Shown: in pieces, positions 8,440 to 28,971 of the stretch
How the letters are laid out: every line of letters starts with the position of its first letter
Numbering within the stretch: position 1 is the first letter of the stretch
Virus record (IMG/VR): IMGVR_UViG_3300034064_000207
Span: 1-33,843 of that record
DNA: 33,843 nt
Direction: 5' to 3' (one strand)
From: a virus
Notes under the pieces: model-generated
What the model was told of the DNA's origin: nothing
Database searches by the model: none
What the model saw: the letters and a program-made list of their open reading frames with translations, nothing else
Program-made: the position numbers and the translations under genes

Positions 8440-9620
8440 TGGCATTTAATATTGTTGATATGTTAAGAGGTGATATTGTCCAGCGACAACAACCTCAACA
8501 AAATTCAAGCTCAGGTCTTGGCGAGATGCTTTCATATCTAATGCAAAGTAACAACCAACCTGTTGCAAAAGTTCCTGAGCAAGCACAATACTGGAATCCT
8601 CCTAGTTTAAGTGAGATTGCTCAAGTTTCTGCTAATAGACGACAAGAAAAGCAACAGGAAGATTCTTTTGCAAAGTTGCAGGAGTTAATTGGCACTAAAG
8701 GCACACCAGGTAATAACATTCCAATACCATTTAGGGGTGCAGTAATGCCAACTAAAGGAACTGGATTGCGTGGAGGTGGAAGTTTAGAAGATTTTGCTAT
8801 TGGTCTTGCTGGTCTTCCTGATAAGGTTTTAGCAGCTCAAGGCTTTGATATGATGACTAATTTGTCAAAACCACAAGCTAAACCAACACTTCATTCAATG
8901 GGCGCACCAAATAAGCCTGGTTACAAAGTTAATTTTTATCTTGATGATAATAATCAACCTGTACCAGTTGGCGAACCGTACAAAGCAGATGGTGGTATTA
9001 ATATTAATACTGGTGCTACTGGTGCTATGGGTAACTTATTAACTAAAGAACAAAAACAACAAGCTGGAATACCTGAAGCAGATGTTGCACAAGTTAATCA
9101 ATCTGGTGGAATAAACATTGTAAAATCTGCTCCTGCACCAGTTGAATTAAAAGATTGGCAACGAAAAGATTTAGACTTTGCTACAAGAATGATAAAAGCA
9201 GATAAGATTTTGTCTGAAGTTGGTACTAATTACAGTCCAGCAGCTGTAAAAGCTGCAAGATTTTTAGAAAATGTGCCATTTGTAGATGATTTAGCTTATG
9301 CTAATTTAGATACAAACGATCAAAAGGTTTTGCAAGCTCAACTCCAACTTCTTAATTCTGTATTAAGACCTGAATCTGGAGCTGTTATTGGGGATACTGA
9401 ATTTTCAACTGGAGAAAGACAATATTTTCCAAGACCAAATGATCCACAGGAATTATTAGATCAAAAGGCTGCAGCAAGAAAAACTGCAATAGAAGGATTG
9501 TTGCTTGGAATACCTAAAGAATTTTATCCAAAAGATTATGGATCATATTCTCCATCATCAACAGGAAATTCTAATTTATCGCATACTGATTATTTAAAAT
9601 CAATAGGGGAAAAACCATGA
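8439..9620 (+). CDS. Putative internal virion (ejection) protein (393 aa)
   Basis: GTG start overlapping the previous TAG. After a Gln-rich N-terminus there is a helical C-terminal domain (about residues 235-370) with RKDLDFATRMIKADKILSEV, QLQLLNSVLRPESGAVIGDT and EFSTGERQYFPRPNDPQELL. The pattern LRxESGAxI-xxxEF-x-R-Q-YFPxPxD recurs in a large class of phage proteins at the end of the tail/ejection module. It lacks any enzyme motif. I infer an ejected internal protein because the next gene is the long helical one. Confidence 0.7.
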   Translation: MAFNIVDMLRGDIVQRQQPQQNSSSGLGEMLSYLMQSNNQPVAKVPEQAQYWNPPSLSEIAQVSANRRQEKQQEDSFAKLQELIGTKGTPGNNIPIPFRGAVMPTKGTGLRGGGSLEDFAIGLAGLPDKVLAAQGFDMMTNLSKPQAKPTLHSMGAPNKPGYKVNFYLDDNNQPVPVGEPYKADGGININTGATGAMGNLLTKEQKQQAGIPEADVAQVNQSGGINIVKSAPAPVELKDWQRKDLDFATRMIKADKILSEVGTNYSPAAVKAARFLENVPFVDDLAYANLDTNDQKVLQAQLQLLNSVLRPESGAVIGDTEFSTGERQYFPRPNDPQELLDQKAAARKTAIEGLLLGIPKEFYPKDYGSYSPSSTGNSNLSHTDYLKSIGEKP

Positions 9621-11611
9621 GTTCCTATGGCGATTTACAAAAAGCATTTTATCTAGCGCAACAAAGAGGCGATACAGAGTATGCCACAAAATTTGCAAAA
9701 GAATTAGCAGCACAAGGAACTGATTATAGTGGAAAGCAGATTGAAGAATCAAACCTACAGGCTGGTGATACATTAGGCGGTAATGTTTGGAATGGTAAAG
9801 GATGGGTATCTCCTGATAAGTATGATCTGCCATTAAAAACTGTTGCTAGCACACCAACTGCACAAGAAAACAAACCTAAATCATCTATGTTTGGTCTTGG
9901 TGGACGTGCTATGTTAGAGGGTGTCGCTGGAGCTCCTGCTGGTATTTATAATGCAATTAGTGCTTTAGGCAATATTGGCATGCCTGAAAATAAAGTTGTA
10001 ACTCCATTAACACCACCAGAAAGTATAAATACTCAACAGTATGGTACTAAGTTAGCTGATTATTTAGGATTACCACAACCTACTAATGAGCAAGCAATTC
10101 CAATGGAAGTTGCAAGAACTATATCTGGATTTGCTGTTCCACTAGGAATGTTAAGCAAAATTAAATCCATTCCATCAATGGCAGCTACAATGATTGGGTC
10201 TAATGCTCCAAAAGCAACTGCAATAACTGCTGGTTTATCCAAATATGCTACTGAAAAGGCAAAAGAAAAAGGATTGCCAGAATGGGAGCAAAGTCTTTTT
10301 GGAATGTTGACTGGACTTGGAGCTGGTAGCGTATTAGGAATGGCTGCTCCAACATCGAGAGCGGTATTAAGGACAGGACAAAGTAGTTTTGGCGCATTAG
10401 AACCATTGGCAGGTAGGTTATTAAATCGTCAAGCTGGTGCTGAAGCTGGTACTGTTGCTAATTTATTAGAAACTGGTGGCGTGCAGGGTGTTAAACCTAT
10501 TGCTGGCTTTCAACCAAAAACATCAGATATTGCAGGAAACGCTGGCATATCTGCATTGGCAAGGTTTGTTGAAAATGATCCTAATTCATCCACAATATTA
10601 AGTGAGCGTTTATTTAACAATGCCAAATCATTAAAAGACTATGTTAATAGAGCTATTGGTTCTGATGCAAGTATAACTAAAAAACAAGATTATCTATATG
10701 ATGTTGTTAATACTGTTTCTAAACCTATGAGAGATAGAAACTTACCAACTAATATTGATAATGTAATAAATTCTATTGATAACGCACTACTTAAGAACAA
10801 AGGAAATCCAGCTATTGAAGGTGCATTACAAAGTATTAAAGAAAAAATACCTGAAGGAGATGTTGGGTTTAATGAAGTTTATAATTTTAAACAGTATATT
10901 GATGATGCTTTGCGTGGCAAATATGATGATCCTGCTTCAATGCAAATTGCAAAATCAGGAACAGCTTTGAATAATGTAAAAACAGAACTAGCAAAATCAT
11001 TAACAAATACTGAATCAGAATTTGGTAAATTCTTAAAAACACAAGCTATTGGTGTAAGACAACTTAATCAATCTAAACAAGCTGAAAAAATGATTAACCA
11101 AGCAACTAATAAAACACCAATTATTAGTAATAGAACAGGTATTCAAGAAGAGGTATTTCCATTATCTGCTGCTAACTTAAGAACTCAAATTCTTAATGAA
11201 AAAGCAATAAGTAAGTTATCACCTAATCAGCAAGTTATTTTTGAAAATGCACAAAGAGCAGCAGCCGCAGGAACAAGGGGAAGCATGGGCATGGCTAAAG
11301 GATCAAACACCACGCAGAACCTTAAAATGAATGAATTAATTTCTGATGATGTTACTAGAGCATTACTTGGTTCTGATGTTAAAGATCAGCCTGGCATCTT
11401 ATCTAATATTTTACGTCCAGTAACAAGGGGATTATCAAATGTTACTGGTAGAACTGGTGAGATTGCTGACATATTAGCTAAAGCAGAACTAGACCCTGCA
11501 TATGCAGCCATGTTGATGCGAAAATATAAATTATCTCCAACTACTGATATGAAATCGGCTGCTGGTCGTAATGCTCTGTATGGCGCATTAACACAATATC
11601 AAAATAAATAA
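9617..11611 (+). CDS. Large internal virion / DNA ejection protein (664 aa)
   Basis: ATGA overlap. The N-terminal 35 residues (SYGDLQKAFYLAQQRGDTEY, then FAKELAAQG) form a motif found at the start of many ejection proteins. A glycine/alanine-rich hydrophobic stretch at about residues 95-125 and a further one at 205-245 could insert in membranes. The remainder is long, helical and polar, with repeated KxxxAL patterns, ending AELDPAYAAMLMRKYK. Its length and context suit a P22 gp20/T7 gp16-type protein that lines the channel across the cell envelope. No lytic transglycosylase motif was seen. Confidence 0.7.
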   Translation: MSSYGDLQKAFYLAQQRGDTEYATKFAKELAAQGTDYSGKQIEESNLQAGDTLGGNVWNGKGWVSPDKYDLPLKTVASTPTAQENKPKSSMFGLGGRAMLEGVAGAPAGIYNAISALGNIGMPENKVVTPLTPPESINTQQYGTKLADYLGLPQPTNEQAIPMEVARTISGFAVPLGMLSKIKSIPSMAATMIGSNAPKATAITAGLSKYATEKAKEKGLPEWEQSLFGMLTGLGAGSVLGMAAPTSRAVLRTGQSSFGALEPLAGRLLNRQAGAEAGTVANLLETGGVQGVKPIAGFQPKTSDIAGNAGISALARFVENDPNSSTILSERLFNNAKSLKDYVNRAIGSDASITKKQDYLYDVVNTVSKPMRDRNLPTNIDNVINSIDNALLKNKGNPAIEGALQSIKEKIPEGDVGFNEVYNFKQYIDDALRGKYDDPASMQIAKSGTALNNVKTELAKSLTNTESEFGKFLKTQAIGVRQLNQSKQAEKMINQATNKTPIISNRTGIQEEVFPLSAANLRTQILNEKAISKLSPNQQVIFENAQRAAAAGTRGSMGMAKGSNTTQNLKMNELISDDVTRALLGSDVKDQPGILSNILRPVTRGLSNVTGRTGEIADILAKAELDPAYAAMLMRKYKLSPTTDMKSAAGRNALYGALTQYQNK

Positions 11612-11623
11612 GGAGAATCGCCA

Positions 11624-12565
11624 ATGACATTAGAGGAAATAGTTAATAGTTTAAAATCTGCTGGACAAGATTATGGTCAGTTGTTTAACAATAATCCAAA
11701 GTACACGGCTGTAGCATCAAATGTTACTAAAGGACTTGAAAATCTTGTTCCACCACAGTTTACTAATACTCAAGATGCTAAAAGCCAAGAATACAGCAAG
11801 AAGTTAGCTGAATGGGCTTTAGGAAATGGTATGGGTATGAGCGGTATGGCGTTGGGTACTAAGATACCTAATCCTATTAAAGATAATCTTAATGCTGACT
11901 TGCTTAAAAAATACCTATCTACAGGTAAGTTATCGCCAAAAGAAATGGCTCAATATGAAGCTAATGGTTTAGCAATGGAAACGCCACAGTTGCAAAGGTA
12001 TAATGTTGCTAATGCAATGGCTAATCCTGAAAGACAAGCTTATAAAAACAATTTGGACTTTAATTGGGCGCATGGAAGCCCATCGCCTAATATACAAGAG
12101 TTAGTGCCATCCGATATTGGAGCAATGGGACCGGGCGTATATGCAACAAATTATTTCCCTGAAGCAGACAGGTATGCAACAGAAAATATTGGAGCAACAG
12201 TATATCCTTTAGCTGTAAACACATCTAAATCATTTAATCCTAAAAAAATAGGAAATATTTATGACATCTTAGATGCTGATAATGACAGAATGCTTGGGCA
12301 ACGGTTAAGTGCAATGGATAAAGATAGCATTATTCAGACTCAGCCACCAGCTAGAGCTTATTACAAGCATTTAACTGGAGATAATTTAGATATGATTCCA
12401 GCCTTACCAGAAAGAAAGCATTATGTAACAGATTATCAAAATAACATACGATCCCGATTTGCCGCCTTTGATCCACTAAGAAAAAACAGTTCTAGTTTGT
12501 TAGCAAGTGGATTATTAGGTGCTTTATTATTTAACAATGAAAACAAAACATCAGAGAAAAGATAA
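11624..12565 (+). CDS. Internal virion protein with ADP-ribosyltransferase-like segment
   Basis: AAGGAGA lies upstream of ATG 11624. The N-terminal 130 residues are helical with a Gly/Met-rich stretch. Residues 147-200 read NWAHGSPSPNIQEL, then GAMGPGVYATNYFPEADRYA and ATVYPLAVN. His150, Tyr173 and the G-P-G-V-Y-A-T motif match the first and second elements of H-Y-[EDQ] ART folds found in phage polyvalent proteins; the third residue is not certain (Glu187 is a candidate). NNIRSRFAAFDPLR (273-286) is a motif often seen at the end of such proteins. A toxin-like activity delivered with the DNA is possible but unproven. Confidence 0.6.
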   Translation: MTLEEIVNSLKSAGQDYGQLFNNNPKYTAVASNVTKGLENLVPPQFTNTQDAKSQEYSKKLAEWALGNGMGMSGMALGTKIPNPIKDNLNADLLKKYLSTGKLSPKEMAQYEANGLAMETPQLQRYNVANAMANPERQAYKNNLDFNWAHGSPSPNIQELVPSDIGAMGPGVYATNYFPEADRYATENIGATVYPLAVNTSKSFNPKKIGNIYDILDADNDRMLGQRLSAMDKDSIIQTQPPARAYYKHLTGDNLDMIPALPERKHYVTDYQNNIRSRFAAFDPLRKNSSSLLASGLLGALLFNNENKTSEKR

Positions 12566-20040: not shown

Positions 20041-20413
20041 ATGAATTATCCTTATTGTGGACCTCAAGTCCTGTTAATGGTGGGTTAAATACGCATAGCA
20101 GCTCTACTGTAGAAAAAGCTATAAATGAATGCGGATCATTGTTGTCAAGAACGTACATTGTGCCGGGCAATATTCTATGCTTTTCTCCTGTATTTTTATT
20201 TGTAATACATCCATGACCTTTTATGCAATAACAAGCTTCAAGATGATTTTTATAATGCCAATGTTGCTCTCCATTTGGAGGTATTATTGTATTTGTTACA
20301 GAAAATCCCATATTGTCTTTTTCAAGCAAAAACCTTCTGCTTAAAAACCCTCCTTTTGGGCATTTAACTTCTCTTTCTGTTCCTGCTAACTCATGTAATT
20401 TAATTATTTTCAT
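20030..20413 (-). CDS. Ectoine-synthase-like cupin (EctC family, 127 aa)
   Basis: The product aligns by eye along its length with L-ectoine synthase (EctC, about 130 residues), which cyclises N-gamma-acetyl-2,4-diaminobutyrate. Key stretches are GGFLSRRFLLEKDNMGFS, HWHYKNHLEACYCIKGHG, ILPGTMYVLDNNDPHSF and CVFNPPLTGLEVH. Glu59, Tyr87 and His95 correspond to the EctC iron ligands, and the Y-K-N-H-x-E-A and C-V-F-N-P-P-L-T-G signatures are intact. The gene is coupled to IbrA (ATGA) and to IbrB (11-nt overlap). No ectA or ectB is present, so the substrate may be supplied by the host or differ. Family is clear, activity is inferred. Confidence 0.85.
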   Translation of the reverse strand: MKIIKLHELAGTEREVKCPKGGFLSRRFLLEKDNMGFSVTNTIIPPNGEQHWHYKNHLEACYCIKGHGCITNKNTGEKHRILPGTMYVLDNNDPHSFIAFSTVELLCVFNPPLTGLEVHNKDNSYDI

Positions 20414-21711
20414 AATTTTTTATATTTTTCCATAATATTACGTTGTCTCAATGATTGTTCTTTTGTTGGAGCAAATCCCATGTATTTACAGGTATGGTCA
20501 TTTTTTAAAATAGTAATTGCAAATCGTTTCCATGAAGCAATTTCACTATTATTATTTCTTATATCATCAGTATGGTCTGGGTATTTTTTAATTATCACTC
20601 TAATTTTGTCTTTCCTTCCATGAGGAGTTAATCCGTTTTCTTTTATCTTTATACGGTTACTTTCTCTTAGTTGTTTTAAAGTACTGTCTGATACGGTTTG
20701 CCCAACTCTACCCCAGTATTTTATAGATTGAACAAACCGCATTTTAAAATTTATAGAAACTTCCTCCGGTAAAGTTGCCAATAAAAATTTAACAAATGAT
20801 TTCCATGTATGTCCTTCTGGAAGCTTAAAAGTATTGTAATTAAGTTGTTTTCCATAAGTTGCTATAAAGTTAGCACCTTGCACTCTGGCACATAATTTAG
20901 CCCATGTATGAGGATCAATAACTCGATACAAACCTAAACTAGATTTAGACTCAGACATAAATGGAGACGCAACCCTCATTCTATGAACTGGAATACCTGC
21001 TTTATAAAAAATATCGTAAAGCTTGTTGTAATCCCAATCATATATATAATTAGCCGTCCAAACATCTTCTGTTCTCCAATCATAAATGGGGTAACAATTA
21101 TAAGAATGTTCAGTATTCTTTTTTGTCCACATTTGACCGCCTAATGTTTCCTTGCGTTGATTCATAATTGCTCTAAACCTGTTTAAACTTTCAACAGTTC
21201 TAATTCCAATTAAATTTGCGCAAGTTTTGCCTTGTGAATACCATTCTGAAAATCCATCCCAGAATTTATCGTATGGCATATCTTCTTCAAAAAATGGAAA
21301 ATTATGATTTTCAAAATTAACAATGTAATCTTGTTTTGGCATAGGGCGTATCCATCTTTCTTTATCTCTATTACCCCAGCATTGCCATTCAACTGCATAC
21401 GAACTTATTGTGCAAGGAAGCGTTATTGGCAAACAACACCAATAAATTTCAAGCAAATCTCTATTTGAATCAAGTATTTTGTGCATAAACTCTACAGACA
21501 ATTCATAATTTGCTTCATTGTCTAAAATTTGAATGCCTATTTTTTTTGTTATTCCTTTTTCCCTCATATATTTCAAAACAAAATTAAGCATTACTCCAGA
21601 ATCTTTGCCGCCTGAAAATGAAAGATATATTCTTTCAAAATTATTAAATATAAAATCTAATCTTTCTACGCCTGCATCCCAAACATTCTTATTTCTGTTA
21701 TAAGTTCTCAT
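20410..21711 (-). CDS. IbrA-like PP-loop (PAPS-reductase-type, DUF3440) enzyme (433 aa)
   Basis: ATG 21711 has GGAGG about 6 nt upstream and overlaps the YqaJ stop (ATGA). Residues 31-38 SFSGGKDS are the PP-loop of the PAPS reductase/ATP pyrophosphatase superfamily. Further landmarks are IQILDNEANYELSVEFMH, ANLIGIRTVESLNRFRAIMN, IYDWRTEDVWTANYIYDWDY and SSLGLYRVIDP. The C-terminal 60 residues (SWKRFAITILKNDHTCKYMG) are the DUF3440-type module. Such enzymes adenylate a substrate and often transfer sulfur (compare DndC). The role in phage is not known. Confidence 0.85.
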   Translation of the reverse strand: MRTYNRNKNVWDAGVERLDFIFNNFERIYLSFSGGKDSGVMLNFVLKYMREKGITKKIGIQILDNEANYELSVEFMHKILDSNRDLLEIYWCCLPITLPCTISSYAVEWQCWGNRDKERWIRPMPKQDYIVNFENHNFPFFEEDMPYDKFWDGFSEWYSQGKTCANLIGIRTVESLNRFRAIMNQRKETLGGQMWTKKNTEHSYNCYPIYDWRTEDVWTANYIYDWDYNKLYDIFYKAGIPVHRMRVASPFMSESKSSLGLYRVIDPHTWAKLCARVQGANFIATYGKQLNYNTFKLPEGHTWKSFVKFLLATLPEEVSINFKMRFVQSIKYWGRVGQTVSDSTLKQLRESNRIKIKENGLTPHGRKDKIRVIIKKYPDHTDDIRNNNSEIASWKRFAITILKNDHTCKYMGFAPTKEQSLRQRNIMEKYKKL

Positions 21712-22571
21712 GTCAACCTCCAATAACTACTAGGAGGTGATTGATATTTAGTAAGGTCTGCATCAGGCAATAATTCTTTTATGGCTTTAGCGTAGGATAT
21801 AGCACCATCACGGTGTACTTGTGTTAGTTTGTGTCCAGCAATCTCACTATCCTTTCCACCAGCCAATGTAACTATCTCAGCTAATATATCTTTGCGTGTT
21901 GCTTCTAGCTTCTTAATTTCTTCTGTTGCTGCAAGATACAGTTCCAACATTGCTTCACATTGAAGTTGTTGGCGTTTATCTTCCAAATACTTTATACAGA
22001 CTGGTGCTTCACGTTCCACAAGATACTTATTATAAAATGTTCTAAGTTCCGGTAAGTATTTATCAATAGCTAAAGGATTAAACCAAACTGTTTCTAGCAT
22101 CTCTCCATGTGCAGACCATTGGTAGAAATGACACCATTCCCTACCAGTAACTAACAACTGTATTTGTATTTGCATCCAGTAATGCGTTTGGTAGTCTATG
22201 CTTTTAAACTCTGGTGGGTTTTTGTCACGCAAACCATATGGGCATTTAATTTCAATTAAACCGTCAGTATCGATCAAACCATCTGGTGATGCTCCAAGCC
22301 AATCTTCATAAGTATGAAAACCAGTTTCTACTACTTTTTTATCAAACTTCAATTCGTAATCAGCTAAAGCATTGGGTTCGTTATACGTTCCATAGCTAGT
22401 CGCTGGATTACCAGTAAACTCACTTGGATAGCCATGATAATCACGAACCATGTTACGCATAACATCTTCACGTTTCATAAATGGCGACAATCCTAGAATT
22501 GCACCAACATTACTACCAGTTATACGACCTTTGCGTTTTTCAAACCATTCTTCTGTACGTTGTTGTTCCAT
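21708..22571 (-). CDS. YqaJ-type viral recombinase / lambda exonuclease-like nuclease (287 aa)
   Basis: N-terminus EEWFEKRKGRITGSNVGAIL is the YqaJ opening motif. The catalytic core follows at 92-113: LGASPDGLIDTDGLIEIKCP, with Asp97, Glu107 and Lys109 as the metal-binding PD-(D/E)xK set. HYWMQIQIQLLVTGREWCHF supplies the downstream Gln motif. It would resect double-stranded DNA ends for annealing, together with the SSB-like and Sak4-like proteins upstream. The C-terminal part is helical (ELYLAATEEIKKLEATRKDI). Confidence 0.9.
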   Translation of the reverse strand: MEQQRTEEWFEKRKGRITGSNVGAILGLSPFMKREDVMRNMVRDYHGYPSEFTGNPATSYGTYNEPNALADYELKFDKKVVETGFHTYEDWLGASPDGLIDTDGLIEIKCPYGLRDKNPPEFKSIDYQTHYWMQIQIQLLVTGREWCHFYQWSAHGEMLETVWFNPLAIDKYLPELRTFYNKYLVEREAPVCIKYLEDKRQQLQCEAMLELYLAATEEIKKLEATRKDILAEIVTLAGGKDSEIAGHKLTQVHRDGAISYAKAIKELLPDADLTKYQSPPSSYWRLT

Positions 22572-23903: not shown

Positions 23904-23945
23904 GGTATTTCTCCTTACGGTTAAAAATCTTTTTCTCTAATTCCG

Positions 23946-23974
23946 TTGCACATTTTACCGATATAAATTAGAAT
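23946..23974 (+). promoter_or_regulatory. Sigma70-type promoter for the rightward genes
   Basis: TTGCAC (23946-23951), 17-nt spacer, TAGAAT (23969-23974). It lies 44 nt before the HTH gene, whose ribosome site AGAGGA is at 24006-24011. It overlaps the leftward promoter almost completely. Confidence 0.65.
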
Positions 23975-23979
23975 TGCAA
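23952..23979 (-). promoter_or_regulatory. Sigma70-type promoter for the leftward early operon
   Basis: On the minus strand TTGCAA (23979-23974), 16-nt spacer, TAAAAT (23957-23952). It reads into the Sak4-like gene with AAGGAG before its ATG. A GTTGCA/TGCAAC inverted pair (23945-23950, 23975-23980) overlaps both -35 boxes. Confidence 0.6.
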
Positions 23980-24017
23980 CACCTAAACAAATATTTTTTT
24001 AAACAAGAGGAAAAACA

Positions 24018-24194
24018 ATGCTAACACCTGAAGAAATCAAAGCTAAATTAATACATCCTTCTTTTAACCTATCTTATTTATCTAGGGAAGTAGGAATCGG
24101 ATATATGACTCTGTGGAAATTAGCTCACGGGAAATTAAAAGTAATTCCTTATGATTTAGTCAAAAAATTAAGTGACTATTTCAATGTTGCCTGA
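24018..24194 (+). CDS. Small Cro-like HTH regulator (58 aa)
   Basis: MLTPEEIKAKL precedes NLSYLSREVGIGYMTLWKLA and HGKLKVIPYDLVKKLSDYF. The S-x-L-S-R-E-V-G-I-x-x-x-T-L-W-K-L-x-x-G-K pattern is a classic helix-turn-helix in a Cro/CI-type fold. It is the first rightward gene, after a clean AGAGGA site, and sits beside overlapping divergent promoters, so autoregulation and repression of the leftward operon are likely. It overlaps the primase-helicase by 11 nt. Confidence 0.8.
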   Translation: MLTPEEIKAKLIHPSFNLSYLSREVGIGYMTLWKLAHGKLKVIPYDLVKKLSDYFNVA

Positions 24195-26058
24195 GTTATG
24201 CGATGCAATTAGAGCAGTTGGTTATGAACCACCTTCTAATATAGCAGTTGGTAAAGTTACTCGTTTTTCAACCAACGGCAAAAGAAATGATAGGTCAGGT
24301 TGGGTTCATGTATTCGATGATGGAAAAGGCGCAGTATTTGGTTGTTGGCGCAGTGGAGAGCAACACCAATGGTTTGAAAAACGTGATTATGTTCCAGATA
24401 TACACGAACAAGAAGCCATGCGTCAGCAGTTTGAAGAAGCTAAACGTAAAGCTATTGCTGAACGTGATGCTGCTTATTCTATAGCTGCAAAGGAAGCGCA
24501 GGTATTATTTGATAATGCTGTTCCAGTTATAAGTCATGACTACCTTACAAATAAAGGCATACGTCCAAATATGGCTCGTATGTTTGGCGGAAAGTTAATC
24601 ATACCTGTCTATGGTGCAGACGGAGAAATTCAATCTGTACAATCGATATTTAGTGATGGTGCTAAAAGGTTTCATTCTGGTGGAAAGATGCTTGGAGGTC
24701 ATTGCTGGATTGGTGATCCTTCTGAGTCTGAAACTCTTTTAATTGCAGAAGGATTTGCAACTGCGGATAGTTTAAACCAAGCCACCAATCTTGCTGTATG
24801 TATAGCATTTAACGCTGGAAATCTTAAGCCAGTAACACAAATGATTGCAAGCCAGTATATTGGCAAGAAAATAGTTATTTGTGCAGACAATGACAGTTCT
24901 GGCATTGGTATGAGCAAAGCAAAAGAATGTGGCGTTGATATTGTATTGCCAACTATTGATGGTGACTTCAACGATATGATGTCAGAAAAAGGAATTGATG
25001 CAGTTCGTGACATTGTATTTGGAAAAGTAAAGCAGGAAGGCTTGTTCATCACCATTGAAGATATGATGGCAAGCATCAAGAAGCCTAATTGGTTAATTAA
25101 GGGAATACTTGAGCGTGGCTCAATGAATCTTCTTTTTGGTGAGTCAGGTGCAGGTAAAAGTTTATTTGCAATGGATTGGGCGTTTTGCGCTGCAACAGGT
25201 AGAAACTGGCATGGTCATAAGATAAAAGAAGAGCTTAAAACTTTAATTATTATGGGTGAAGGTTTGCGTGGTGCTTCAATGCGCTTTAAAGCATTATCAC
25301 AAAAATATGGAGAACCGCCAAAGAATATTAGATTAAGCAGACGATCCATTAATCTATTAGATAGTAAAGAAGCTGATGAAATATTAAAAATAGTAGCAGA
25401 GTTAGATTTTAAACCTGATATTATTATTATTGATACGTTGCACAGAAACATGGTTGGAGATGAAAATAGCTCTGAAGATATGGCAATGTATTTTAAGTCT
25501 ATAGAATTACTTGCCAGACGTTTAGATGCTGCTATTGTAACTGTTCACCATTCTGGACATGGTGATAAGGGAAGATCAAGAGGTTCATCATCTATTAAAG
25601 CTGCAATGGACGCAGAGTTTTGTGTCACCAAGAATGGTGATGGCATTACTTTTTCATGCACCAAGTCAAAAGACTTTGGATTTGGTACTGATATGAGTTT
25701 TGTCATTAAAGAAGTAGAGTTAGAAGGTGAAGTATTTTATGATGAAGATGATGATAAGCAGATCACCAGTGTTTATTTAGAGTATCAAGGTGTTGCTAAG
25801 AAGGAAAAATCATTGCCAAAGAAATTGCAAAAGGCACTTGATAGTTTAGTTTTGGCAGCAGAAACTATTGGAAAAGAGCGTCCAGAACTGTCCATTTTAG
25901 GTTCTGGACAGATAATTGTTTCACTGTCCGAATGGAAACCATTTTTTAATGAGGATAAAGAGCTTGCTTCAAGGCGACAAAACTTTTCAGAGTGCAGAAA
26001 AGAGTTGTTAAAACAAGAGCTTATAGCTGTTGATGGAGATTATAGTTGGATATTATAA
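24184..26058 (+). CDS. Bifunctional primase-helicase (Toprim plus RepA-like AAA ATPase, 624 aa)
   Basis: ATG 24184 is preferred to GTG 24172. Toprim elements: LLIAEG with Glu189 and ADND at 234-237, the metal-binding motifs of a primase. The helicase half has Walker A GESGAGKS at 319-326 and Walker B IIIIDT at 413-418, then AAIVTVHHSGHGDKGRSRGS, a motif of RepA/AAA_25-type replicative helicases. No N-terminal Cys zinc motif is visible, unlike T7 gp4. It primes and unwinds at the phage origin, and the repeat region overlaps its end and follows it. Confidence 0.9.
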   Translation: MLPELCDAIRAVGYEPPSNIAVGKVTRFSTNGKRNDRSGWVHVFDDGKGAVFGCWRSGEQHQWFEKRDYVPDIHEQEAMRQQFEEAKRKAIAERDAAYSIAAKEAQVLFDNAVPVISHDYLTNKGIRPNMARMFGGKLIIPVYGADGEIQSVQSIFSDGAKRFHSGGKMLGGHCWIGDPSESETLLIAEGFATADSLNQATNLAVCIAFNAGNLKPVTQMIASQYIGKKIVICADNDSSGIGMSKAKECGVDIVLPTIDGDFNDMMSEKGIDAVRDIVFGKVKQEGLFITIEDMMASIKKPNWLIKGILERGSMNLLFGESGAGKSLFAMDWAFCAATGRNWHGHKIKEELKTLIIMGEGLRGASMRFKALSQKYGEPPKNIRLSRRSINLLDSKEADEILKIVAELDFKPDIIIIDTLHRNMVGDENSSEDMAMYFKSIELLARRLDAAIVTVHHSGHGDKGRSRGSSSIKAAMDAEFCVTKNGDGITFSCTKSKDFGFGTDMSFVIKEVELEGEVFYDEDDDKQITSVYLEYQGVAKKEKSLPKKLQKALDSLVLAAETIGKERPELSILGSGQIIVSLSEWKPFFNEDKELASRRQNFSECRKELLKQELIAVDGDYSWIL

Positions 26059-26172
26059 TCTGTCCAAGTGTCCAAATTGGACATTATTGGACATGTTGTA
26101 CAGGATTAATAAAAGTGTACGTACTGTCCACACCCCCTTAAGGGGGTGGACAGTGGACACAAATCTCGGACA
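25888..26172. repeat. Iteron-like TGTCCA/TGGACA array, candidate replication origin
   Basis: Ten exact or near copies of TGTCCA or its complement TGGACA. In the primase end: 25889-25894, 25905-25910 (as a 7-bp hairpin CTGTCCA/TGGACAG) and TGTCCG at 25925-25930. Downstream: 26061, 26069, 26078, 26088, 26125, 26147, 26154, and CGGACA at 26167. TGTCCAAATTGGACA (26069-26083) is a perfect dyad. The 196 nt from 26059 to 26254 hold no convincing gene. Such arrays bind initiators or regulators; the origin role is inferred. Confidence 0.65.
26124..26153. promoter_or_regulatory. GC-rich hairpin in the repeat region
   Basis: Palindrome CCCCCTTAAGGGGG (26133-26146) flanked by CTGTCCA (26124-26130) and TGGACAG (26147-26153), with a 2-nt CA bulge on the left arm. 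It is the most stable hairpin seen in an AT-rich region. No T run follows, so a terminator is unlikely; an origin or primase site is possible. Confidence 0.7.
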
Positions 26173-26216
26173 AGGAATTGTATGGATAAAATTAAAAGAC
26201 ATGAAGGACTAATTAT

Positions 26217-26239
26217 GTTATATTAATTTTTAATATAAC
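26217..26239. promoter_or_regulatory. AT-rich perfect inverted repeat
   Basis: GTTATATTA, loop ATTTT, TAATATAAC. It lies directly before the 73-residue ORF, 44 nt after the iterons. It could be an easily melted element of an origin or an operator; no T run makes a terminator unlikely. Confidence 0.5.
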
Positions 26240-26254
26240 TAAGTGAGTTTTGAA

Positions 26255-26476
26255 ATGGATAATGAAGAAAGATTAAATAAACAAAAATTAGCAAAAAGAA
26301 TTTATCGTTTAAAAAATAAAGAAATTGGAAATGATAGGGATAAAGTTTATGAAGAAAAAAATAAAGAAAAAATAAAAGAAAAAAAATCTTTGTTTTATTT
26401 TGCTAATAAAGAAAGATTAAACAAAGAAAGATGCGAAAGAAGATTACGACAAAAATTGAGAGAATCTATTGAATGA
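26255..26476 (+). CDS. Highly charged Lys-rich protein (73 aa)
   Basis: ATG 26255 or GTG 26243 may be the start. The product (MDNEERLNKQKLAKRIYRLK, then NKEKIKEKKSLFYFANKERL) is almost all Lys, Glu, Asn and Arg. The N-K-E-R-L-x-x-x-R/K spacing resembles basic repeats in the linkers of HNH/homing nucleases and of the AlpA-like protein here. No nuclease motif. Possibly a DNA-binding accessory protein. Confidence 0.5.
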   Translation: MDNEERLNKQKLAKRIYRLKNKEIGNDRDKVYEEKNKEKIKEKKSLFYFANKERLNKERCERRLRQKLRESIE

Positions 26477-26603
26477 AATTTTAGAGTTTATAAAAGAGCT
26501 TGAAGAAGTTTTTAAAGTACAAGCAAAAGCAATTAAGATTAATGACAAGGTGGTGTTACATGATGGTAAATTTCAACAAAAAAGAGATGGACTTAAATTA
26601 TGA
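26469..26603 (+). CDS. Small ORF with TTG start (44 aa)
   Basis: TTG 26469 lies inside the end of the preceding ORF, and its stop overlaps the next ATG (ATGA). It reads LNEILEFIKELEEVFKVQAK as helix, then VVLHDGKFQQKRDGLKL. Coupled position supports it; no family recognised. Confidence 0.35.
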   Translation: MNEILEFIKELEEVFKVQAKAIKINDKVVLHDGKFQQKRDGLKL

Positions 26604-26704
26604 AGAAAGATTACGTTGTATCGTGGTATTTGCTACCGTTTGTATTGGTAGTATATTTTTTTATATTGTTGGTGGGCATTGTTAGAATGGTGTTTAACAA
26701 ATGA
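26600..26704 (+). CDS. Small membrane protein (34 aa)
   Basis: Begins MKKDYVVSWYLLPFVLVVYF and continues FILLVGIVRMVFNK: one hydrophobic helix with basic ends. Overlaps both neighbours (ATGA). No family recognised. Confidence 0.5.
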   Translation: MKKDYVVSWYLLPFVLVVYFFILLVGIVRMVFNK

Positions 26705-26838
26705 CAGACGAAGAATGGTTTTATAATATGTGTGACCGTATTAATAAAATGCCAATAGAAGCGCAGTTAGAGGCGTTTTTAGAAGAAGTTAAGGATAAGC
26801 CTAGAGTTAAAGCTTTTGTCCTTGTGATGAGGCTGTAA
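26701..26838 (+). CDS. Small acidic protein (45 aa)
   Basis: ATG 26701 overlaps the preceding stop. It begins MTDEEWFYNMCDRINKMPIE, then AQLEAFLEEVKDKPRVKAFV. Helical; no family recognised. TAATG overlap with the next gene. Confidence 0.55.
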   Translation: MTDEEWFYNMCDRINKMPIEAQLEAFLEEVKDKPRVKAFVLVMRL

Positions 26839-27065
26839 TGAAGCACAATCATTATTTTAAAGATGTACGGCATATTGACGGCATTGACGTTTATCGGGTG
26901 TTGGAATTGTTTAATGTAACAGACCCTTGTCTGCAACATGCGGTAAAAAAGTTGTTGTGTGCAGGGAAAAGAGGTGCAAAGGATGAAGAGCAAGATGTTC
27001 AAGAGGCAATGGATACGTTGGAGCGTTATCAGGATATGAAGGTGGAGGAAGATCTGCATGATTAA
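26838..27065 (+). CDS. Conserved small phage protein (75 aa)
   Basis: The core YFKDVRHIDGIDVYRVLELF, then VTDPCLQHAVKKLLCAGKRG and EQDVQEAMDTLERYQDM, is a family recurring in many phage early regions (D-V-R-H-x-D-x-I-D-V-Y-R-V-L-x-L-F). Charged and helical; function unknown. TAATG overlap with the previous gene and 8 nt overlap with the next. Confidence 0.75.
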   Translation: MKHNHYFKDVRHIDGIDVYRVLELFNVTDPCLQHAVKKLLCAGKRGAKDEEQDVQEAMDTLERYQDMKVEEDLHD

Positions 27066-27186
27066 ACGGACAAAGATTTGCAAACATAAGTACCAGGCAA
27101 CTTATGTTTCATGGCGCAAGAAAGTTTGTGTTGATTGCAATAAAGAGTTTCCATTGTATGATTTAAAGATTGAACACCAAAGGTAA
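27058..27186 (+). CDS. Small Cys protein (42 aa)
   Basis: MIKRTKICKHKYQATYVSWR, then KKVCVDCNKEFPLY. Cys8, Cys24 and Cys27 with His10 suggest a small zinc-ribbon. Overlaps the previous gene by 8 nt. No family recognised. Confidence 0.55.
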   Translation: MIKRTKICKHKYQATYVSWRKKVCVDCNKEFPLYDLKIEHQR

Positions 27187-27191
27187 TAATA

Positions 27192-27275
27192 ATGGCGTTA
27201 AAGGTTAGCAACAAGAACAGAAAGAAATTAATAATGTTCAAGGCAAATGAAAAAAGTTATGAAACCAAAGATTAA
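27192..27275 (+). CDS. Tiny basic ORF (27 aa)
   Basis: MALKVSNKNRKKLIMFKANE with end KSYETKD. Its 3' end overlaps the next ORF. Short and highly basic; weak evidence apart from position. Confidence 0.3.
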   Translation: MALKVSNKNRKKLIMFKANEKSYETKD

Positions 27276-27375
27276 GTGGGTTGGAAATTACTGGAGGTGT
27301 TATAGTGCAGACAGAATTGCTTATGGTGAGTCACCAAAGGTGGCGTTTATTAATTGGAAATCGCAGTATTTTTAA
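27259..27375 (+). CDS. Small conserved phage protein (38 aa)
   Basis: The pattern K-W-V-G-N-Y-W-R-C-Y, then YGESPKVAFINWKSQ, is recurrent among tiny phage proteins (W-R-C-Y ... Y-G-x-x-P-x-x-A-x-x-N-W). Role unknown. Last gene before the small terminase. Confidence 0.65.
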   Translation: MKPKIKWVGNYWRCYSADRIAYGESPKVAFINWKSQYF

Positions 27376-27425: not shown

Positions 27426-27719
27426 GCAACATTAGGAAAAGCAGGTGGAGAAAAAACAGGTGGTCGTCAAAAGGGCGTACAAAATGTTGCAACTGTACAA
27501 GCAAGACAAGCTATTGCAGATTTTGTTGATGGAAATGCTCACAGATTAACAGGATGGCTTGACCAAGTTGCTGAAACAAATCCAGAGCGTGCGTTTCAGT
27601 TATTTCAAAGTGTTATTGAATATCATGTTCCAAAGTTAGCAAGAAGTGACAATACTGTAACAGGTGCAGTTGGTGGAGCAATAGTCCACAGGATAGAGGT
27701 TTCATTTGGCGACGATTAA
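27423..27719 (+). CDS. Terminase small subunit-like protein (98 aa)
   Basis: Placed directly before the large subunit and overlapping it by 14 nt. The N-terminus is MATLGKAGGEKTGGRQKGVQ, basic and glycine-rich; the C-terminal part has helices ARQAIADFVDGNAHRLTGWL and RAFQLFQSVIEYHVPKLARS. The E-Y-H-V-P-K-L-A-R motif is often seen in short small-subunit proteins of podoviruses. At 98 residues it is shorter than most. It should recognise phage DNA for packaging. Translation appears to depend on the hairpin ribosome site. Confidence 0.65.
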   Translation: MATLGKAGGEKTGGRQKGVQNVATVQARQAIADFVDGNAHRLTGWLDQVAETNPERAFQLFQSVIEYHVPKLARSDNTVTGAVGGAIVHRIEVSFGDD

Positions 27720-28971
27720 GGCAAAGTTTCCTCCAAGTCTTAAAGATATATTTAAGCCAAAAAGATATAAAGTAATTTATGGTGGACGTGGATCAGGAAA
27801 GAGTTGGAGTGTTGCAAGAGCATTAATCATTAAGTCTGTTAATGAACCGATAAGAGTTCTTTGCGCTCGTGAAACACAGAAGTCTATACAAGAATCAGTA
27901 CATAAGTTGCTCAAGGATCAGATTGATATACTTGGTTTACAGCATATGTTTACAGTTCTTGAAACAAAGATAATTGGAATTAATGGTTCTGAGTTTAGTT
28001 TTGCAGGTATTCGTCAACAAGGCATTACAAACTTAAAGTCTTTTGAAGGTGTTGATATATGTTGGGTTGAAGAAGCTCAGGTTTGTACTAAGAAATCATG
28101 GGACGTTTTAATACCTACAATAAGGAAGCCAAACAGCGAAATATGGATAACATTCAATCCTGAATTAGATACTGATGAAACATATGTTAGATTTGTATTG
28201 ACAGATAATGAAGAAGCTGTTGTTATAAAATGCAACTATTCTGATAATCCTTGGTTTCCAGAAGAACTTGAAAAGGAAAGGATAAATTGGTTAAAGCGTG
28301 ATCCTGAAGGATATAAAACAGTTTGGGATGGAGAATGTCGTCCTGCTGTTGAAGGTGCTATTTACGTTAATGAGATAACTAAACTTCATCTTGAAAAAAG
28401 ACTAGGAAATGCTCCATACGATCCACTATTGAAGGTTCATACAGTATGGGATTTAGGTTGGAACGATTCAATGTCTATATTGATGGCGCAACGATCAGGC
28501 TCTGGTGAAGTAAGGATTATCGACTATATTGAAGATTCACATCGTACTTTAGATAGTTACATTGCTGAATTGAATACAAAGGGTTACAATTATGGCACGG
28601 ACTATATTCCTCATGATGGACGTAGTAGAGATTTTAAGTCTGGAAAGTCTACTGAAGAAATATTAATGGCATTAGGAAGAAGTGTTAATGTTTTAGGACG
28701 CGAGGACATCGAGGAAGGAATCAAGATGGCAAGGATGATGTTTGGTAGAGTTTGGATTGATAAGAAAGCGTCAGAGTTACTGAATCAAATCAAACGCTAT
28801 AGAAGAACACAAAACCAAAGCACTGGTACATTTGGCGCACCACTTCATGATGATAGTTCACATGGTGCTGATTGCTTTAGGTATCTGGCTATGGCAGAAC
28901 AGAATATGACAAATGACTCTTGGGGTTCAGGAGCATTAGATTATTCATATATACAAAGCGGTATAATTTAA
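27706..28971 (+). CDS. Terminase large subunit (PBSX type, 421 aa)
   Basis: The start is TTG 27706 with AGAGG 6 nt upstream; no ATG lies nearby in frame. Walker A GGRGSGKS at 26-33 and Walker B ICWVEEA at 118-124 are the ATPase; FNPE at 150-153 is coupling motif III. The nuclease domain has VWDLGWND with Asp249, HDGRSRD with Asp304 and HDDSSHGAD with Asp382/383 and Asp389. The 421-residue length fits the PBSX/Terminase_3 family. It pumps DNA into the prohead and cuts it. Confidence 0.93.
   Translation: MATIKAKFPPSLKDIFKPKRYKVIYGGRGSGKSWSVARALIIKSVNEPIRVLCARETQKSIQESVHKLLKDQIDILGLQHMFTVLETKIIGINGSEFSFAGIRQQGITNLKSFEGVDICWVEEAQVCTKKSWDVLIPTIRKPNSEIWITFNPELDTDETYVRFVLTDNEEAVVIKCNYSDNPWFPEELEKERINWLKRDPEGYKTVWDGECRPAVEGAIYVNEITKLHLEKRLGNAPYDPLLKVHTVWDLGWNDSMSILMAQRSGSGEVRIIDYIEDSHRTLDSYIAELNTKGYNYGTDYIPHDGRSRDFKSGKSTEEILMALGRSVNVLGREDIEEGIKMARMMFGRVWIDKKASELLNQIKRYRRTQNQSTGTFGAPLHDDSSHGADCFRYLAMAEQNMTNDSWGSGALDYSYIQSGII

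Follow-up and report, generated by a model that had tools for sequence, protein, structure and literature searches.

Replication origins built of iterons, placed downstream of an initiator gene and read by the C-terminal domain of its product, are already known. In the staphylococcal pathogenicity islands (SaPIs), the C-terminal part of Rep recognises an iteron origin located downstream, and that of the related Cch2 binds specifically in isolated form (PMC7581432). Phage-inducible chromosomal islands (PICIs) have the same order of parts, with the origin 3' of rep, in a segment that replicates plasmids (PMC6092414). Here we describe a probable case of this arrangement in a tailed phage, the IMG/VR virus record IMGVR_UViG_3300034064_000207, analysed over its 33,843 bases (the window). 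An array of the hexamer TGTCCA/TGGACA directly follows its gene for a Toprim primase/RecA-like helicase, and homologous genes are followed by arrays of other words, a word being the unit repeated in an array. The word tracks the last ~85 residues of the protein, not the remainder, and the array is very probably a cis-acting replication origin that would be read by the winged-helix C-terminus of the adjoining primase-helicase.

The locus resembles the pri-rep-ori segment of SaPIs and PICIs in its two iteron sets and in the position of the putative origin directly 3' of a primase/initiator-helicase gene (PMC6092414, PMC7581432). A helicase C-terminal domain serves as origin reader in SaPIs, where this has been shown, and probably does so in the window family. 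However, SaPI helicases belong to the families DUF927 and D5/Primase_Cterm and their primases are archaeo-eukaryotic primases (AEPs), whereas the window protein combines Toprim_3 (residues 189-275) with the RecA-like AAA_25 (residues 295-464, 2.6e-33). The window family also has a conserved CTWWAG hairpin between the halves of its second iteron block (block B), an AT-rich stretch after the array rather than between the iteron sets as in PICIs, and many words on one near-identical backbone. PICIs are satellites lacking the full virion gene set, with an AEP primase and a SaPI-type Rep helicase; the window, with terminase, portal, scaffold and major head genes and a Toprim primase, falls outside them.

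The alpha protein of phage P4, as far as the work cited in PMC4234260 describes it (Ziegelin & Lanka 1995; Yeo et al. 2002), unites a Toprim-type primase, a helicase and a C-terminal winged-helix origin-binding domain, and uses an iteron origin. The window protein likewise joins a Toprim primase, a helicase and a predicted C-terminal winged helix, beside an iteron array. P4 has a superfamily 3 (SF3) helicase and one iteron family, and its origin lies at a distance from the gene's 3' end. The AAA_25 match, with no SF3 family listed, places the window protein outside the P4 alpha family proper, while the marks of the P4 alpha/PICI mechanism class are present: primase and helicase in one protein, iterons directly after the gene and, in predicted models, a C-terminal winged helix.

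Plasmid pRN1 requires a stem-loop downstream of its replication gene (PMC4234260). Its ORF904 and phage BIP-1 share with the window a regulator gene, then a primase-helicase with a C-terminal winged helix, then a stem-loop varying in sequence and constant in structure; they differ in their archaeo-eukaryotic primase, SF3 helicase, lack of iterons and large 100-nt stem-loop (PMC4234260). The iterons and the Toprim primase set the window apart from this type, which is defined by a large stem-loop without iterons and an AEP primase. In the PICI-like element (PLE) satellites, origin and DNA-binding domain vary together, and an origin-directed phage nuclease (ICP1 Odn) has been proposed as the driver (PMC8263062). 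PLEs are satellites, not autonomous phages, and have two specificity groups, an N-terminal RepA_N domain and an origin apart from repA (PMC8263062), whereas the variable domain of the window family is C-terminal and no RepA_N match was found with Pfam. In the open-licence literature, we found no report of such origins in Toprim/RecA-like primase-helicases, of the CTWWAG hairpin, or of a comparable number of specificities on one backbone.

Iteron arrays after the primase-helicase gene

The primase-helicase gene (24172..26058, + strand) encodes 628 residues. Its Toprim_3 and AAA_25 domains, together with PHROG matches to DNA primase and primase/helicase, agree with the identity given by the first-pass annotation, and the product is proposed to be a self-loading initiator. 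Nine exact copies of TGTCCA/TGGACA lie within 271 bp at and after the gene's end, a denser cluster than any other non-trivial hexamer forms in the window. Seven follow the stop codon (26061, 26069, 26078, 26088, 26125, 26147, 26154), and two stand in coding sequence (25889..25894, + strand; 25905..25910, − strand) with the near copy TGTCCG (25925..25930, + strand). In block A (26061..26093), forward iterons at 26061 and 26069 face reverse iterons at 26078 and 26088 and include the perfect 15-base dyad TGTCCAAATTGGACA (26069-26083). Block B (26123..26172) comprises a forward iteron at 26125, a hairpin, reverse iterons at 26147 and 26154, and an extra GGACA (26168-26172) at the right end. The GC-rich hairpin (26123-26154) has arms of 13 nt with 92% complementarity and the centre CTTAAG (26137..26142, +79 from the stop). 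An AT-rich stretch directly past block B (26178..26258) is a candidate unwinding region. The blocks, the hairpin centre and this stretch are unstranded features. The seven hexamers, the in-gene copies, the dyad and the hairpin had all been reported in the first-pass annotation, and each was found where it had placed them.

The claim that this density exceeds chance was borne out. TGGACA peaked at 7 per 120 bp, while every other non-trivial hexamer stayed at 4 or fewer window-wide; in 40 simulated windows, the maximum was 5 for any hexamer and 3 for TGGACA. No comparable density thus occurs elsewhere in the window. Across the whole window, TGTCCA occurred 27 times against 16.9 ± 4.3 in shuffles, and the 18 copies outside the cluster are background. 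As single-stranded DNA, the array folded 5.7 standard deviations better than shuffles (z −5.7). Directly 3' of the array, we also observed an AT-rich inverted repeat (26208-26248, 10 perfect pairs around TTT), which is present in locus L001, apparently in L002 and L037, and not in other TGTCC-type loci.

Arrays follow the stop of homologous primase-helicase genes in about 80 loci from IMG/VR phages, one prophage and cultured phages. A first protein scan yielded 50 IMG/VR loci, an alignment-based scan and one prophage (the only relative in the GTDB scan) added words, and a third scan brought in a few further loci. Wherever the gene end was present in the first-scan loci, an array followed the stop codon. 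Only part of them carried TGTCC; the others carried CATCCATCC, TATACCTACC, CATACATAC, ACCCACCC and so on, with the layout unchanged. The words added subsequently were CCTCAC, AGGTG, ATGTACAT, CGGGA, CGTACG, TATACATAC and CGTTAC. The relatives as a whole display TGTCC, CATCC, ATACC, CATACAT, CACCC, CCTCAC, CGGGA, CGTACG, CGTTAC, GGTTCA, CGTGACA and others. Cultured phages with proteins about 30% identical also carry arrays, as represented by Alteromonas PB15 (GGTTCA), Idiomarinaceae 1N2-2 (GGTACA), Salicola CGphi29 (GGGACA), Roseobacter CRP-406 (GGCTGGAA), and Rhizobium 16-3 and RHph_X2_25 (GCGTGACA); a Pseudorhodobacter replicon has GTGACA. In the two Rhizobium phages, the array is longer and the hairpin lies about 350 nt past the stop.

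Within the 200 bases at and after the stop, the commonest 6-mer of each of 85 distinct loci was compared with dinucleotide shuffles. Enrichment was found in 79 loci at p ≤ 0.05 and in 72 at p ≤ 0.01; among the same-sized control tiles of the 79 enriched loci, about 2270 in all, just 15 reached the array value. Six loci failed: L027 has a two-letter word removed by the filter, L035 has degenerate copies, the array of L193 lies inside the reading frame and outside the tested stretch, and L100, L103 and L104 have no array, L103 retaining a hairpin only. L096 passed (0.04), yet no array was seen in it by inspection. In L055, a single 6-mer occurs 12 times in a 200-base tile off the array, exceeding the count in the array itself.

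The layout is fixed among the IMG/VR relatives, with two iteron blocks, the second surrounding a hairpin with a CTWWAG-like centre. Counted from the stop, iterons point right from about +2 to +20, left from about +20 to +45 and right from about +55 to +72, followed by the hairpin centre (about +66 to +81, mostly +74 to +81) and left-pointing copies up to about +115. CTWWAG-like hairpins with at least 4 pairs, of 29 different sequences, occurred in 67 of the 85 loci and in 29 of 6654 control tiles; most of the loci missed are only definition cases. Over eight stem positions in 41 distinct stems, pairing was 84%, compared with 48% (maximum 56%) when right arms were redealt, an excess that arises partly by construction because the centre was chosen for pairing. 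AT content at +120 to +200 exceeded the locus mean by 0.10 to 0.15 in 16 types. The AT-rich part comes after block B, and no PICI-style AT-rich spacer between the blocks was found. Thus, when relatives were compared as the first-pass annotation had suggested, the position proved conserved and the repeated word exchanged; judged by such comparisons, its proposal of an origin-like element at this gene is supported, the position being kept in distant relatives as the word changes.

Coupling of the word to the C-terminal domain

The segment that varies with iteron type comprises residues 541-628 (25792..26055, + strand). When phages of different types are compared, identity drops sharply near codon 541, about 260 nt upstream of the stop, and does not recover within the array; phages of one type remain highly similar across the array and diverge beyond it. 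The window and L017 share 96% identity in the primase, 98% in the helicase and 35% in the C-terminus, and L029 and L035 share 99%, 98% and 36%; in both pairs the words differ, an exchange on a near-identical backbone. Conversely, the same word occurs on different backbones in the window and L029 (73, 76 and 74% in the same order) and in L017 and L031 (75, 76 and 73%), which look like old types retained in both backbone clades. L023 and L046, with one word, 68% identity in the helicase and 89% in the C-terminus, look like a case of transfer.

Across 70 loci, array similarity followed the C-terminus given the helicase (partial Mantel r 0.74, p 0.001, a value that is only indicative because the loci are not phylogenetically independent), and it did not follow the helicase given the C-terminus (−0.15). 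With the downstream flank included, the correlation was 0.75 with the C-terminus and 0.07 with the flank. Each of 16 C-terminal clusters, whose numbers depend on thresholds, corresponded to one array type, whereas helicase cluster 4 included five array types.

The C-terminus of the window was predicted by AlphaFold2 as a winged helix (order H1-S1-H2-H3-S2-S3) with a mean predicted local distance difference test score (pLDDT) of 73; that of the CGTAC-type locus L065 gave the same fold with a mean pLDDT of 85, about 95 over the domain. The structural neighbours were winged helices (Cdc6 Z 8.5, ORC1 Z 8.3, CRP Z 8.0 and others), values that point to a shared fold in the models, not to kinship. 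The P4 origin-binding domain 1KA8 was absent among the structure matches listed, which excludes nothing, and Pfam and PDB sequence searches with the domain gave no significant match. Between-type minus within-type divergence was highest at residues 601-604 and 606-608 (0.89 at residue 602), within residues 601-609 (25972..25998, + strand), where the predicted recognition helix H3 begins; further peaks lay at residues 552, 555, 571-573, 579 and 596. Phe605 is nearly invariant, and Leu612 and Trp626 show little or no variation.

The coupling extends into the coding sequence. Between 190 and 60 nt before the end of the coding sequence, own-type words reached a density of 0.92 compared with 0.18 for the words of other types (13 of 15 loci), and the enrichment was lower in the controls upstream (0.45 vs 0.19) and downstream (0.33 vs 0.23). 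Both TCC serine codons that the in-gene TGTCC copies contain persist in the 75%-identical L029, where the only 2 TCC among 45 serine codons stand at the in-gene iteron positions; in the window, TCC makes up 3% of serine codons. In L193 (1-1300), the primase frame spans the whole array, which is translated as a C-terminal tail with its CGGGACA copies and hairpin intact. Since the in-gene copies change along with the word, these data support the earlier suggestion of selection on DNA within the coding part.

Adjacency might produce such coupling by linkage only, if mosaic recombination with breakpoints near codon 541 and past the array let the two co-travel without molecular recognition. We regard this as highly unlikely: the downstream flank, just as close, shows no coupling once C-terminus and backbone are accounted for (0.07 vs 0.75), copies inside and outside the gene switch word together while layout and hairpin are unchanged, and between-type divergence peaks at the recognition helix.

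Proposed origin function and competing explanations

We infer an origin from the coupling and the conserved layout, and propose the following mechanism. The C-terminal domain would bind the iterons of blocks A and B, plus the few within the 3' end of the gene, and the bound iterons would lead to helicase rings being loaded face to face. The DNA could then open at the central hairpin and/or the AT-rich flank, and the attached Toprim primase would synthesise the initial primers, perhaps within the CTWWAG loop once exposed; the hairpin as opening or priming site and the role of the flank are conjecture. Domain and array would form an exchangeable cassette of about 400 bp, in which the word diversifies and the layout is held.

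Several points weigh against this proposal, besides the non-independence of the loci. The array is absent in more distant helicase homologues (Mycobacterium phage Wanda, Caulobacter GB2A, MW202475). Because the domain adjoins the array, part of the coupling could be co-inheritance, yet the flank at equal distance is uncoupled. GC skew yields no independent origin call: in place of the turn at the array that the first-pass annotation had suggested seeking, there was no clean turn, and the cumulative minimum near 24.0 kb is where gene orientation flips, a confounding that makes skew unusable for calling the origin. The third-position G excess (0.29 right vs 0.12 left) is suggestive only.

Winged helices are frequent in regulators, and the array stands between the primase and the downstream genes, where it might act as an operator through which the winged helix regulates its own or downstream genes, with the hairpin as terminator or attenuator. 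A promoter-like TGGACA-16-TATAAT (11/12 match, minus strand, 26066-26039) overlaps the 3' end of the primase gene together with the first iteron; it could drive an antisense RNA or be a chance match. However, the hairpin has no T-run and is absent from the terminator scan output, no TGTCC/GGACA occurs upstream of the primase (23904-24171), and two iteron blocks, one surrounding a hairpin, better fit an origin. An operator is therefore unlikely as the explanation of the array, although origin and operator roles are compatible in one element.

Pac sites may be repeats near terminase genes, and terL (27706-28971) lies 1.5 kb downstream, which might indicate a site for packaging (pac/cos) recognised by a terminase subunit. 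This is extremely unlikely, as the word tracks the primase C-terminus with no signal added by the flank, and the annotated neighbours of the array in other phages are NTP-PPase, p102-p105 and a VRR-NUC nuclease, not terminases.

Four or five types are found together in single samples (IMG 3300036985, 3300046005, 3300020044). Going beyond the origin itself, we give even chances to an allelic system of origin specificities in one phage family, in which at least nine array types and 16 C-terminal types (more with the cultured phages) would co-circulate in single samples across diverged backbones, with iterons partly in the gene segment of their own reader; selection favouring rare origin types would maintain the system. 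As conjectural causes of the diversification, we consider escape from cross-firing, from satellites or from nucleases that target origins. When IMG/VR was searched with a 28-base block-B pattern for origin-only satellites, 13 contigs matched. Of these, 11 were primase loci found before; the other two had the pattern close to a contig end, and one of them includes the end of the C-terminal domain. For two types, a search for free-standing copies of the domain (e.g., in an origin-directed nuclease) gave confirmed matches only on known primase contigs and one short contig end, close relatives of the domain being found only next to primase.

Genome surroundings and implications

Upstream of the primase gene lies a small transcriptional regulator gene (24018..24194, + strand; phrog_18104, E 2.4e-10), a position occupied by small helix-turn-helix genes in Alteromonas PB15 and Idiomarinaceae 1N2-2. 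Pfam and PHROG matches identified the SU10-type portal, terminase, scaffold and major head genes of the tailed phage. Rfam and tRNA scans of the window found nothing. The small genes after the putative origin (window 26180-27350; same place in L001-L048) vary among phages of the same origin type: L001, L002 and L037 have window-like genes, and most others have another short gene starting MEE/MDE. The place looks like an exchange spot. Between replication genes, an auxiliary gene (20410-21723, − strand) encodes a phosphoadenosine phosphosulfate reductase-like protein with DUF3440 (phrog_2302, E 9e-107). Two large proteins of 664 and 313 residues (9617-11611 and 11624-12565, + strand) had no PHROG match, and the 664-residue one also had no Pfam match.

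In this family, winged-helix domains and DNA words come as a natural set of pairs on a single backbone, so that a recognition code between initiator and origin can be tested directly. Phage origins of this kind would be findable by sequence, as an iteron array around a CTWWAG hairpin past a primase-helicase stop. The findings further suggest that phages experience diversifying selection on origin identity, as they do on immunity or receptor type; such a pressure has been described for the PLE satellite against Odn (PMC8263062).
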